A DNA stretch of 44,069 nt from a virus. Under the pieces are notes generated by a model, which searched no databases, had not been told where the DNA came from, and worked only from the letters and a program-made list of their open reading frames with translations. Shown here in pieces: positions 191-42,973 of this stretch (within the stretch, counting starts at the first letter, position 1; each line of letters begins with the position of its first letter). A program made the translations under genes and the position numbers. The stretch covers positions 1 through 44,069 of IMG/VR virus record IMGVR_UViG_3300030107_006371; one strand, written 5' to 3'.

Positions 191-200
191 TCCTCTTAAC

Positions 201-261
201 TTATGGCTATGCCATAGCTTGGCTATAGCTGTGCTATAGCTTTGCTATAGTCTTGCCATAG
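201..261. repeat. GCTATAGC iteron-like array, left copy
   Basis: Degenerate units GCTATAGCTGT (222-232), GCTATAGCTTT (233-243), GCTATAGTCTT (244-254) and GCCATAG (255-261) follow a GGCTATGCCATAG palindrome, spaced exactly 11 bp. Related words recur at 1095-1185 and the core AGCTATAGC occurs inside the initiator-gene iterons. Spacing of one helical turn fits cooperative protein binding on one DNA face; the binding protein is not known. Confidence 0.6.
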
Positions 262-319
262 AACCCTAACTAGGACTCGAACCTAGCTATCCCAAAGGGA
301 TAGACTCCTGTCTAGGGTT
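262..319 (-). ncRNA. tRNA-like cloverleaf with minimal D-arm
   Basis: Read on the minus strand this 58-base element folds as a tRNA-like shape. A 7-bp acceptor-type stem (AACCCTA with TAGGGTT) encloses a tiny GAC-AGGA-GTC arm. Next comes an anticodon-type hairpin CTATC-CCTTTGG-GATAG (would read UUU), then a perfect T-arm CTAGG-TTCGAGT-CCTAG whose loop matches the tRNA consensus TTCGANT. It lacks a normal D-arm, variable loop, U33 and an encoded CCA, and the anticodon stem can zip further, so an ordinary decoding tRNA is unlikely. It may be a decayed tRNA, a tRNA mimic or processing signal between leftward genes, or an old attachment-site remnant. No integrase gene is seen. Confidence 0.5.
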
Positions 320-350
320 TGTTTTCCTTGTGTATCTCGTCGGTTACAGT

Positions 351-692
351 CTACGCGTTGAGGTGATTCCAACGCGTGATTCCGTCGGAAGACTCGTCGA
401 TAGTGAAGCCGTTAGACAGCGCGTTATTCATCGCGTGGTCTTGTGGGTTCGGTAGGTCTGACTCTTCGCGTCTCTGAAGTTCAGCTTCAAAGTCGTAAAC
501 TGCGCTTAATTTCGCACGGTTTTGCGCGTTCCTGACAAAGCTAGCTAGTTCATCTTGGCGAAAGTGTTCCTCATACGCGAGAAGAGCTTGCTCTTCTTCA
601 TGTGTAGGAATATCTACGCGTTCGGTGCTAGTTTGGGTGTTTACATCGTTTCGGTTAACAACTTCGTTGTTAGGTGTATAATAGTTAATCAT
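351..692 (-). CDS. Acidic helical protein of unknown function
   Basis: A 113-residue protein with no family I recognise. It is polar, with a long Glu/Arg-rich helical centre (about residues 30-80) and a Trp near the C-terminus. The ATG has a good AAGGAG site eight bases upstream, and the leader carries a 7-bp hairpin, so expression leftward is credible. It is the only gene in the left 1.3 kb. Its DNA is clearly richer in G+C (many ACGCGT and TCG words) than the rest of the genome, which suggests recent acquisition. If the molecule is circular it would be the first gene of the leftward transcript. Confidence 0.7.
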   Translation of the reverse strand: MINYYTPNNEVVNRNDVNTQTSTERVDIPTHEEEQALLAYEEHFRQDELASFVRNAQNRAKLSAVYDFEAELQRREESDLPNPQDHAMNNALSNGFTIDESSDGITRWNHLNA

Positions 693-1185: not shown

Positions 1186-1260
1186 ATTTCTTAGAAATAG
1201 AATTAGTATTAGAATTATATATATAAATAAAACTAAAAAAGAAAAACATTAAATTAAATA

Positions 1261-34328: not shown

Positions 34329-35315
34329 ATGCCAAGAAAAACAGGAAAATCGCCATCATTTCATATGTATGCAGGTGATTTTTTATCAGATATGAATGTA
34401 AAACTAATGAATATGACCCAAAGAGGGATTTACATAACCCTACTACTACATGAGTGGATTGAAGGCTCTATACCGTCAAATATGAAACATTTAAAGAAGC
34501 TCTGTGAGGACTGCAAGGATTTTGAAAAGCATTGGAAAATGGTAAGTCCTTGTTTTTATGAAGAAAATGGGAAAATGTATAATCCAAGACTTGAAGAAGA
34601 AAGAGCAAATATGTTAGCAGATAGAGAGAGAAAAAGTAAAAATGGTAAGAAAGGTGCTATGAAAAGATGGCACAGCAATAGCACAGCTATAGCACAGCCA
34701 TCTAATTCTAATAAAGAAATAGAAATAGAAAAGGAAATAGAAATAAATAAAAATAAAAAAACTATTTCAAGAATAACTTTAAATAAAGAATTTGAAAATG
34801 AATTTTGGACTTTATATCCTAGGAGAGATAATAAAAAAAGAGCTAATGATAAATATGTACAGCTACGAAAAGCAGGCGCTACAAAAGACGATATTTTAAA
34901 CGGATTAAAGGGATACATTAAACAATGGAAAATATCAGGAACTGAACCTGAATATATTCCTATGGCTAGCACATGGCTACACCAAGAAAGGTTTAAAGAC
35001 GAATTAATTACGAACACAGAAAGTATTAAAATGCTTAAACATAAAAAAGAATATAAATGGATGTGTAAGGAATGTGGCAGTGAAAAAACCACACAAGAAG
35101 ACCTAGCTGGTAAATTTTCAATATGTGAATGTGGCGATGGTTATTGGGAATCTAGGAATAGCGTACTTCAACAGCTAGCAATTGAAAAAGACGCTAAATC
35201 CAGACAGGTTTTAAGAGAATCTGGAAATGATGCTAGAACAAACGATAATAGTAGTAGTAAAAAAGATATTAATAGCTTAGTTTCTAATTTAACTAAATCA
35301 TTTGGGGTGCGGTAA
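34329..35315 (+). CDS. DUF1376/DnaD-type replication initiator
   Basis: A 328-residue protein. Residues 10-115 (FHMYAGDFLSDMN, MNMTQRGIYITLLL, NGKMYNPRLEEERANMLADR, GKKGAMKRW) match DUF1376, found in phage initiators. A Lys/Asn linker (116-150) holds DNA iterons. Residues 155-225 (FWTLYPRRDNKKRANDKYV ... YIPMASTWLHQERF) match the helicase-loader-type C-terminal domain, and a zinc ribbon (CKECG, CECGD) follows. It probably binds the origin and loads host helicase. Strong SD. Confidence 0.75.
   Translation: MPRKTGKSPSFHMYAGDFLSDMNVKLMNMTQRGIYITLLLHEWIEGSIPSNMKHLKKLCEDCKDFEKHWKMVSPCFYEENGKMYNPRLEEERANMLADRERKSKNGKKGAMKRWHSNSTAIAQPSNSNKEIEIEKEIEINKNKKTISRITLNKEFENEFWTLYPRRDNKKRANDKYVQLRKAGATKDDILNGLKGYIKQWKISGTEPEYIPMASTWLHQERFKDELITNTESIKMLKHKKEYKWMCKECGSEKTTQEDLAGKFSICECGDGYWESRNSVLQQLAIEKDAKSRQVLRESGNDARTNDNSSSKKDINSLVSNLTKSFGVR
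34670..34702 (+). repeat. Three 11-bp iterons inside the initiator gene
   Basis: GCACAGCAATA, GCACAGCTATA and GCACAGCCATC are tandem with exact 11-bp period in the linker of the initiator gene. The reading frame is out of register with the repeat (HSNS, STAIA, AQPS), so DNA, not protein, is being conserved. An A-rich run (34703-34770) follows on the right, as expected of an unwinding element. The design is that of the lambda origin. Confidence 0.65.
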
Positions 35316-36378: not shown

Positions 36379-36738
36379 ATGCTTAAAAAAGATTACCAAG
36401 AACAAAGAGACCATTTAGGCGCACACCTTAAAAACAGCGCTAGCAAAGTATATCAGGTTACAGATGGAATATTACAAATTTGTCAATATGCTAGAAAAGG
36501 TAAGTTGGGTAAAGGAACTGCCTTTAAAGAAATAGAAAAGCTTGCGCTAGAACTTAGACACTGGAACGATGTTCCTGCTAATGTGAGTTACAAGTTTTCC
36601 CCTTTGGGTGTGATGGATAAAGAAGAGGAGTGGAAAAAAGAAAAAATAGAATCTAATAAATTTATGTTATCAAAAGATGACGCGGATAATAAAATTTACC
36701 CAACAACAAAAGATATAAAAACCGCGCTAGCTACATAA
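36379..36738 (+). CDS. Last rightward small helical protein
   Basis: A 119-residue protein with charged helices (DYQEQRDHLGAHLKNSASK, FKEIEKLALELRHWN). Unknown function; SD is weak. Faces the leftward block across a 30-base convergent gap without a clear terminator. Confidence 0.5.
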   Translation: MLKKDYQEQRDHLGAHLKNSASKVYQVTDGILQICQYARKGKLGKGTAFKEIEKLALELRHWNDVPANVSYKFSPLGVMDKEEEWKKEKIESNKFMLSKDDADNKIYPTTKDIKTALAT

Positions 36739-40874: not shown

Positions 40875-41777
40875 TTACCCCCTAAACCATTTTGGTTTAT
40901 TTGCTAGTTTTTGAAGTGTTTGCGCTAGTCCGTCAATAGCCTGTTCGGTTGTCCTGCAAAATCTCTGCTCTACGGTATGTATTAGATTAAGTTCTTTTTT
41001 GTAAGCGTCTGTAGTTTCGCACTGCCTACCTAAGCCAGTGTAAAATCCGTATTCTTTATCCATTAATCCGAAACAATAATCCCTAAATAATCCCGAAAGA
41101 CCTGCACTCATAAGTCTATGTATATCTAATGGTTCGTTAGGCATTTTAATTGGTATTGACATACCAAAGTATTTCCAAGATTTGTTACCGCTATATCTCA
41201 CAAAATTATAAGCTAGCACCTCGACAGCAAAGCCCATTTTAGTTAGGACGTCGCTAATTAAAGCTAGCGTAGCCCCAAGCCTTGCAAAGTCTTTTTCTTT
41301 ATGTTTCCATGATATTGCCATATTCATTCCTATACGAACATTAGAACGCTGTGATTTTCTCTCGGTAGTAGACCAATATTGGTCTTGCCCACCCATTAAT
41401 CTAGCCATGCTTAAATCGTCCCCATCGTCTCTCACTACTCGTCTACGTTTGCATGACAACCCTTTGCCTGTAAATTTGGAGATTCTGCCATCCATATCCA
41501 TTTCAGAGCGAAGTTTTTGATAAAGTCGAATAACTTTATTAGATGTTTGCCCAATCGTAAGCGCTCTATGTAGGTTTTCTCGCCCTACGACCTCACTGCC
41601 ATAAGTCCACTTTTCACGACTAGAACCCTCTTCGCCTATTTTTTTCCAAAATATTTTATTTTGGTAAATGCACTTAAGCATAGTCCTCATATTAGGCATG
41701 TGGATAATAGCGTGTTTTCCTTCAAATTCATCTTTAACAATTTTCGGTTCTAGTATTTTGCTATAAAGTTCGTCCAT
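40875..41777 (-). CDS. Degenerate VWA/CobT-like partner of the AAA+ ATPase
   Basis: A 300-residue protein. After a Lys-rich N-terminus, NVRIGMNMAISWKHKEKDFARLGATLALISDVLTKMGFAVEVLAY follows the VWA core order seen in CobT-type phage proteins (residues about 147-190), but no DxSxS metal site is visible. The gene begins at the TAATG of the ATPase, so they are made together. MoxR/VWA pairs remodel protein complexes. The target is unknown. Confidence 0.55.
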   Translation of the reverse strand: MDELYSKILEPKIVKDEFEGKHAIIHMPNMRTMLKCIYQNKIFWKKIGEEGSSREKWTYGSEVVGRENLHRALTIGQTSNKVIRLYQKLRSEMDMDGRISKFTGKGLSCKRRRVVRDDGDDLSMARLMGGQDQYWSTTERKSQRSNVRIGMNMAISWKHKEKDFARLGATLALISDVLTKMGFAVEVLAYNFVRYSGNKSWKYFGMSIPIKMPNEPLDIHRLMSAGLSGLFRDYCFGLMDKEYGFYTGLGRQCETTDAYKKELNLIHTVEQRFCRTTEQAIDGLAQTLQKLANKPKWFRG

Positions 41778-42973
41778 TATTTATACTCCTTTTTTAGTTC
41801 TTTGATGTTAACCTTATCAAGTTCCTCTTTTGTCCATCCTGTAGTTATAATGTCGAGTAACTTGCTGTTATTTTTTCCTGCTAGCATCCATTTTTGTCCG
41901 TCAATAAAAAGCCTAGTGCTAATAGTTCGTCTCACATGATTTTCATTACATCTTTTGCGAAGACTCCAAAGACATTCAGCCATATTTGTGAAATTTCCTG
42001 CTAGCGCTCTCTCTATGTTTTTATCATAGTTGACATAAACTTTAACAGCTTGCAATCTATCTAGCGTAGCTAAGTCAAGCTGTCCTCTCCCTGCAAAGTC
42101 GAAGTCATTGCCATCGCCCCATGTATTACTTGCTACTGCCACATGAAAGTCGTTATGTTTTCTAGCAAATGGGTTCTCTTTATCGTTTGGTGTCGCTAAA
42201 ACGCCTTGATTATCTAGCACGCTATTAAATACTAGACCAGCATTTGCATCAAATCCGTCAAATTCGTCCAAACATAGAAATCTACCATCTCGGAATGCTC
42301 TTGATACTGAGCCATCAATGAATGTGCCATCAAATGTCATTCTCCCTGTCATATGAGATTCTGTAACTCCTGCGCTACCTTTAAGATATTCGTAGTTTTT
42401 ATCGTCGGTAGAAAACCCCAATGCTTTAGCACATTGTTCAATCAAATGGGACTTACCAGTCCCACTCGGACCACATAACCAAACTCTTTTAAAGAGTTTT
42501 AAGCATTCTAGCACAAATGGAAACTGCTTATGTTTAAGACCTGATACATCTTCCACTTCTACATCGTCGATATAGACTTTTATAGGTCGCTGTAAAGAAC
42601 TGATTTTTTTATCTACCTTGTCGGCTAGCTTATCAGTTTCGCTACCAAAAGCTTTTATTAAATCGCCCTCTACTTTTGATACTCTATCGTATATCCCATC
42701 TCCTAGCTTTTCTGCTACCTTATCGGCTAGCATATCTTCTAGCGAACCACTTTGTGGTTGTGGTGTAGCTGTCTGTGGCTGTGGTGTAGGCTGTGGTGTA
42801 GGTTTTTGTTCGGTTTTTGGTTTACTGCCATCTGTGATGAATTTAATTAATTCATCTTTGGACGTTGTTTGTATCCAAGATGTTTTTAGACCACCCTGTT
42901 TGCATTTAGCTATCGCTAATTTTTTGACCCTACTGTGAGCCATTGCTCTAAGTTCACTTTGTGAATAGTTCAT
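41777..42973 (-). CDS. MoxR/CobS-type AAA+ ATPase
   Basis: A 398-residue ATPase. N-terminus (1-50) is a small helical DNA-binding-like module, followed by a Pro/Gln/Thr-rich linker (56-75) and a helical part. The AAA+ core has Walker A GPSGTGKS (168-175), Walker B FLCLDEFD (232-239), sensor-1 ASNT (281-284) and an LDR arginine near 307. It follows hairpin E and a 4-bp leader stem GCCG/CGGC. A VWA-like partner follows. Probably an assembly or host-takeover chaperone; MoxR pairs have been seen in some phages. Confidence 0.75.
   Translation of the reverse strand: MNYSQSELRAMAHSRVKKLAIAKCKQGGLKTSWIQTTSKDELIKFITDGSKPKTEQKPTPQPTPQPQTATPQPQSGSLEDMLADKVAEKLGDGIYDRVSKVEGDLIKAFGSETDKLADKVDKKISSLQRPIKVYIDDVEVEDVSGLKHKQFPFVLECLKLFKRVWLCGPSGTGKSHLIEQCAKALGFSTDDKNYEYLKGSAGVTESHMTGRMTFDGTFIDGSVSRAFRDGRFLCLDEFDGFDANAGLVFNSVLDNQGVLATPNDKENPFARKHNDFHVAVASNTWGDGNDFDFAGRGQLDLATLDRLQAVKVYVNYDKNIERALAGNFTNMAECLWSLRKRCNENHVRRTISTRLFIDGQKWMLAGKNNSKLLDIITTGWTKEELDKVNIKELKKEYK

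Follow-up and report, generated by a model that had tools for sequence, protein, structure and literature searches.

A candidate replication-origin module in the linker DNA of a DUF1376-type phage initiator gene and a second, intergenic copy

In phage lambda and the Stx phages, the replication origin lies in the O gene, where initiator-binding iterons and an adjoining AT-rich tract are located in the middle of the gene (PMC7466680). In SPP1, oriL is located inside gene 38 and is accompanied by oriR, so that there are in-gene and intergenic copies, both of which are bound by the initiator; a fork-stalling block has been proposed for oriR. Origins within genes are, as such, already known. The locus described here is carried by a 44,069-bp IMG/VR viral contig, IMGVR_UViG_3300030107_006371, which was analyzed over its full length (here called the window) and whose genes, including those for a terminase, a portal protein, and a major head protein, indicate a tailed phage. 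It resembles lambda in having phased repeats within the initiator gene and, beside them, an AT-rich stretch that is a putative unwinding element. It differs from lambda in that the initiator belongs to another family, the repeat is an 8-bp palindrome in 11-bp phase, the AT-rich part consists of 6- or 7-bp repeats, and a second, intergenic copy of the module is present. The iterons of lambda are longer than 8 bp. The second copy makes SPP1 a closer model than lambda; the likeness to SPP1 considered here is one of layout, a similar module lying outside the initiator gene, and initiator binding in the present phage is putative.

We consider it likely, with a probability of roughly 0.75, that the in-gene module, as read from its sequence, is an origin-type initiator site in the linker DNA of a DUF1376-type gene. 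In the mechanism that we propose, the linker DNA would be a replication-origin module of the lambda/SPP1 kind. The initiator would bind, probably by its N-terminal domain, to palindromic 8-bp sites spaced every 11 bp, and since this spacing is about one helical turn, the sites would lie on one face of the DNA. The adjoining 6-bp AT-rich repeats would then melt and allow loading of the replicative helicase. The second copy of the module, in a divergent intergenic region at 1.09 to 1.24 kb, would correspond to the oriL/oriR arrangement of SPP1, and one or both copies may fire.

The initiator gene and its in-gene array

The gene at positions 34329 to 35315 (plus strand) encodes a 328-aa protein that was assigned as a DUF1376-type replication initiator from Pfam and PHROG matches and an AlphaFold2 model. 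The match to Pfam DUF1376 (PF07120) had an E value of 1.7e-6 and a score of 28.7 bits, which is below the curated cutoff of 30.1, and the PHROG matches were to primosomal/replication initiation proteins (E values, 1.3e-22 and 4.9e-20). In Foldseek searches of BFVD, the top viral structure matches were DUF1376 proteins (E value, 3.4e-9), with replisome organizers and the DnaD protein of Bacillus phage PM1 ranked below them (E value, about 3e-3); sequence and fold searches of the PDB gave no significant match. The AlphaFold2 model (mean pLDDT, 67) predicted a folded N-terminal domain, a disordered linker (pLDDT, <50 at residues 123 to 144), and a helical C-terminal domain, and the protein contains a putative C4 zinc site. 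No phage helicase or loader was recognized among the window genes searched.

The repeat unit is the 8-bp palindrome GCTATAGC followed by three free bases, giving an 11-bp period. The in-gene array (34667 to 34701, plus strand) reads ATGGC-N3-GCAATAGC-N3-GCTATAGC-N3-GCCAT, with ACA in every spacer, and is kept in relatives. An earlier note on this DNA had described three exact-period 11-bp repeats in the flexible linker; the exact spacing was borne out and the array was found in and just before the predicted disordered residues, but it consists of four phased partial dyads rather than three plain direct repeats. The array is out of frame with the open reading frame, and the peptide encoded there, RWHSNSTAIAQPS, is unrepeated, as had been claimed. 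The claim does not extend to the A-rich run that had been noted on one side of the repeats. This run, found at 34715 to 34759 (plus strand), is the putative unwinding element; it consists of 6-bp AT-rich repeats, (GAAATA)n, and because it is itself a 6-bp repeat, the encoded EIEIEKEIEINKN region repeats as EIEIEKEIEI. The lag-11 score of the linker was reached in only about 0.1% of synonymous-codon recodings, and peptide-driven repeats were rejected on the basis of such recoding.

Intergenic arrays and conservation in viral relatives

The whole window was scanned with a score for three 11-bp-phased GCTATAGC units (maximum, 24), with 200 dinucleotide shuffles as the control. Exactly three clusters were found, at 200 to 262, 1090 to 1163, and 34664 to 34704, with best scores of 23, 20, and 19, respectively; the next-best place in the window scored 15, and the highest score among the shuffles was 18. 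The earlier note had picked out one of the three arrays and missed both intergenic ones. Array A (200 to 262, minus strand) contains five to six phased dyads (CTATAGCANAG), and no 6-bp repeats were seen beside it. Array B (1090 to 1163) lies in a divergently transcribed region, comprises dyads of the in-gene type in 11-bp phase, has equivalents in relatives, and is adjoined by 6-bp AT-rich repeats, (TTAGAA)n, at 1191 to 1240 (plus strand), which resemble those in the gene; together, they form an intergenic copy of the in-gene module (1090 to 1240). An open reading frame of 113 aa lies between the two arrays (351 to 692, minus strand) and shows 83 to 88% identity in near relatives. Two of the relatives, G001 and G003, have the in-gene site as well as both intergenic arrays, which are separated by about 0.9 kb and enclose this open reading frame.

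Searches with the initiator yielded relatives with 42 to 66% identity in the best segment. A search of viral contigs for the pattern GCTATAGC-N3-GCTATAGC gave 37 matches, which included more contigs of the same group but also many unrelated ones, and the strict three-unit pattern had no match in viral contigs because one base varies. An alignment of 12 in-gene sites showed constant dyads and a constant 11-bp phase, with variation in the 3-bp spacers and in the encoded amino acids; conserved repeats with altered linker residues are what the earlier note had proposed to look for in relatives. Six wobble positions inside the dyads agreed in 71 of 72 cells across the 12 initiator genes, spacer wobble positions varied, and the codon preceding a conserved proline always ended in G even though it encoded Q, T, P, E, or K.

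In all 12 genomes, the local match that scored best against the in-gene segment was the intergenic module (with a tie in G009), some contigs having been searched in part. Synonymous recoding lowered the match between the two copies, and the observed score was reached by 0 to 7% of recodings. The match was modest in the window, G003, G009, and G017; in the window, it scored 26, versus 24 at the next-best place, was reached by 4 of 60 recodings, and was driven by the A-rich part. In G019, GCTATAGC-N3-GCCAT followed by GAAGTA-type repeats was found both in the gene and in the intergenic region. G008 (L026/L075) was the most distant relative examined. Its intergenic dyad is GTTATAAC; the matching units in its linker, GTTAAAGC and GCTATAAC, are degenerate but spaced by 11 bp, and they lie in a different reading frame and encode an unrelated peptide. 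Taken singly, L026 and also L022 gave no excess at lag 11.

Several other elements were observed near the intergenic arrays. At 113 to 185, beside array A, there is a second 11-bp-phased repeat family, of the TAGGG[TA]GTAGTT type, in both orientations, which is similar in G001 and G003. Adjacent to array A at 258 to 322 (minus strand), a foldable cloverleaf-like sequence with a T-arm-like hairpin, CTAGGTTCGAGTCCTAG, is nearly identical in near relatives; the element had no covariation support, no tRNA match, and no Rfam match, and it could be a degenerate tRNA or an attachment site. In the window as a whole, ARAGORN found no tRNA and an Rfam scan gave no match. Downstream of array B, at 1261 to 1300, are repeated AACCTTAGGTT palindromes, which are also repeated in relatives and are possible operators.

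Recurrence of the module in the DUF1376 family

Linkers of PF07120 genes from proteobacterial genomes were surveyed against a synonymous-codon null (71 linkers, comprising a first set of 44 and a second set of 27). An excess at lag 11 (P ≤ 0.05) was found in 17 of the 44 linkers of the first set (Fisher, 2.6e-14) and in 13 of the 27 linkers of the second (Fisher, 1.8e-10). Taken together, 30 of 71 DUF1376 linkers showed the excess, compared with 2 of 125 neighboring open reading frames (exact P, 1.3e-13); these P values overstate the number of independent events, because genes of the same lineage are not independent, but the trend is shared by several unrelated repeat types. Both sets also showed enrichment at lag 7, a signal that, on inspection, often reflects downstream 7-bp repeats such as TAACCAATAACCAAG. 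Of the 30 genes with the lag-11 excess, 26 had stronger 6- or 7-bp repeats downstream of the array than upstream and 3 showed the reverse, in a comparison in which the downstream stretch was the longer (130 nt, versus at most 100 nt upstream). The repeat sequence varied by lineage, with CAACGNCCGTT, ATGCGNNCGCA, and GCTATAG types, and the same layout of array plus repeats was found in Pseudomonas fluorescens phage PfAn1 and Brevibacterium phage Rousseau.

Since the module recurs across the initiator family in many bacteria, DUF1376 genes probably contain their own replication starts. On balance, we favor the view that DUF1376 initiators are generally self-contained replicons, in which the linker-coding DNA would be the origin, with palindromes that diverge between lineages, a kept 11-bp phase, and then 6- or 7-bp AT-rich repeats, and in which the low-complexity linker peptides would be by-products of the overlapping DNA element. 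In the lineage of the present phage, the AT-rich repeats can be read as TAG/AAG/AAA-type triplets beside putative protein boxes, as in the DnaA-trio of bacterial chromosome origins. However, the polarity varies between lineages and in most of the surveyed DUF1376 genes the 6- or 7-bp repeats are of other types, so the DnaA-trio is only a resemblance; as a general explanation it was dropped, most survey repeats not being trios.

In the open-access literature searched, no report of an origin associated with DUF1376 was found, nor any description of 11-bp palindrome phasing with 6- or 7-bp repeats or of the two-copy arrangement of this group; subscription papers were mostly outside the search. 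An origin function would give a testable role to a domain of unknown function that is common to many phages and prophages, would allow the origin of DUF1376-bearing elements to be predicted from the initiator gene alone, and would explain the odd dipeptide-repeat linkers of DUF1376 proteins. The natural variants, with changed sites and kept phase, would be useful for recognition studies.

The putative firing copy and alternative readings

The cumulative GC skew of the window had its minimum at 293, by the intergenic arrays, and its maximum at 36685; the switch near 34.7 kb for which the earlier note had proposed a check was absent. The position of the minimum points to the intergenic region as the principal start, so that the in-gene copy may not have this role, although skew is weak evidence here because it follows gene direction. 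The odds that the in-gene module is the principal start are lower than the odds that it is an origin-type initiator site. The lambda-style origin claimed by the earlier note is thus supported in part, by the phased repeats and AT-rich run in the initiator gene, their conservation in relatives, and the family-wide layout, but not by the skew, and the initiator is no recognizable homolog of lambda O, with no Pfam phage replication protein O family among its matches.

The strongest alternative, which we think somewhat unlikely, is that the dyads bind the initiator but serve, in the gene, for control or fork stalling (through autorepression, handcuffing, or an SPP1 oriR-like block), with starts only in the intergenic region at about 1.1 kb. 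The skew minimum, the higher scores of the intergenic arrays, and the fork-stalling model for SPP1 are all compatible with this; however, gene direction also shapes the skew, the in-gene copy retains AT-rich 6-bp repeats that would be superfluous in a pure control site, and an array with downstream repeats is found inside the gene in many prophage DUF1376 genes. It is improbable that the dyads are instead operators or centromere-like sites of another protein (ribbon-helix-helix or ParR-like), present in the gene for its control. Phased palindromes with an 11-bp period on one DNA face also suit such proteins, and the arrays lie on either side of a divergent promoter region and a conserved small open reading frame, but the arrays are accompanied by AT-rich repeats, and 11-bp arrays recur in the DUF1376 linkers of distantly related phages and prophages despite sequence change, which ties them to the DUF1376 protein. 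Finally, the linker is predicted to be disordered and the 6-bp repeats encode dipeptide repeats, but it is very improbable that the repeats arose from slippage or as a side effect of a rapidly evolving linker peptide of low complexity, given that 11 is not a multiple of 3, that the second element is often 7 bp and likewise out of frame, that the synonymous null was exceeded, that wobble positions in the dyads are fixed, and that intergenic DNA carries the same module.

When the ends of the window were joined, the DNA of the relative G003 was nearly colinear across the join, and the contig may therefore be a near-complete, circularly permuted genome. Genes for a CobS-like AAA ATPase and a DUF7192 protein (40875 to 42973, minus strand) are kept in relatives near the candidate origin region; judged by its position, the DUF7192 protein would be a CobT-like partner.
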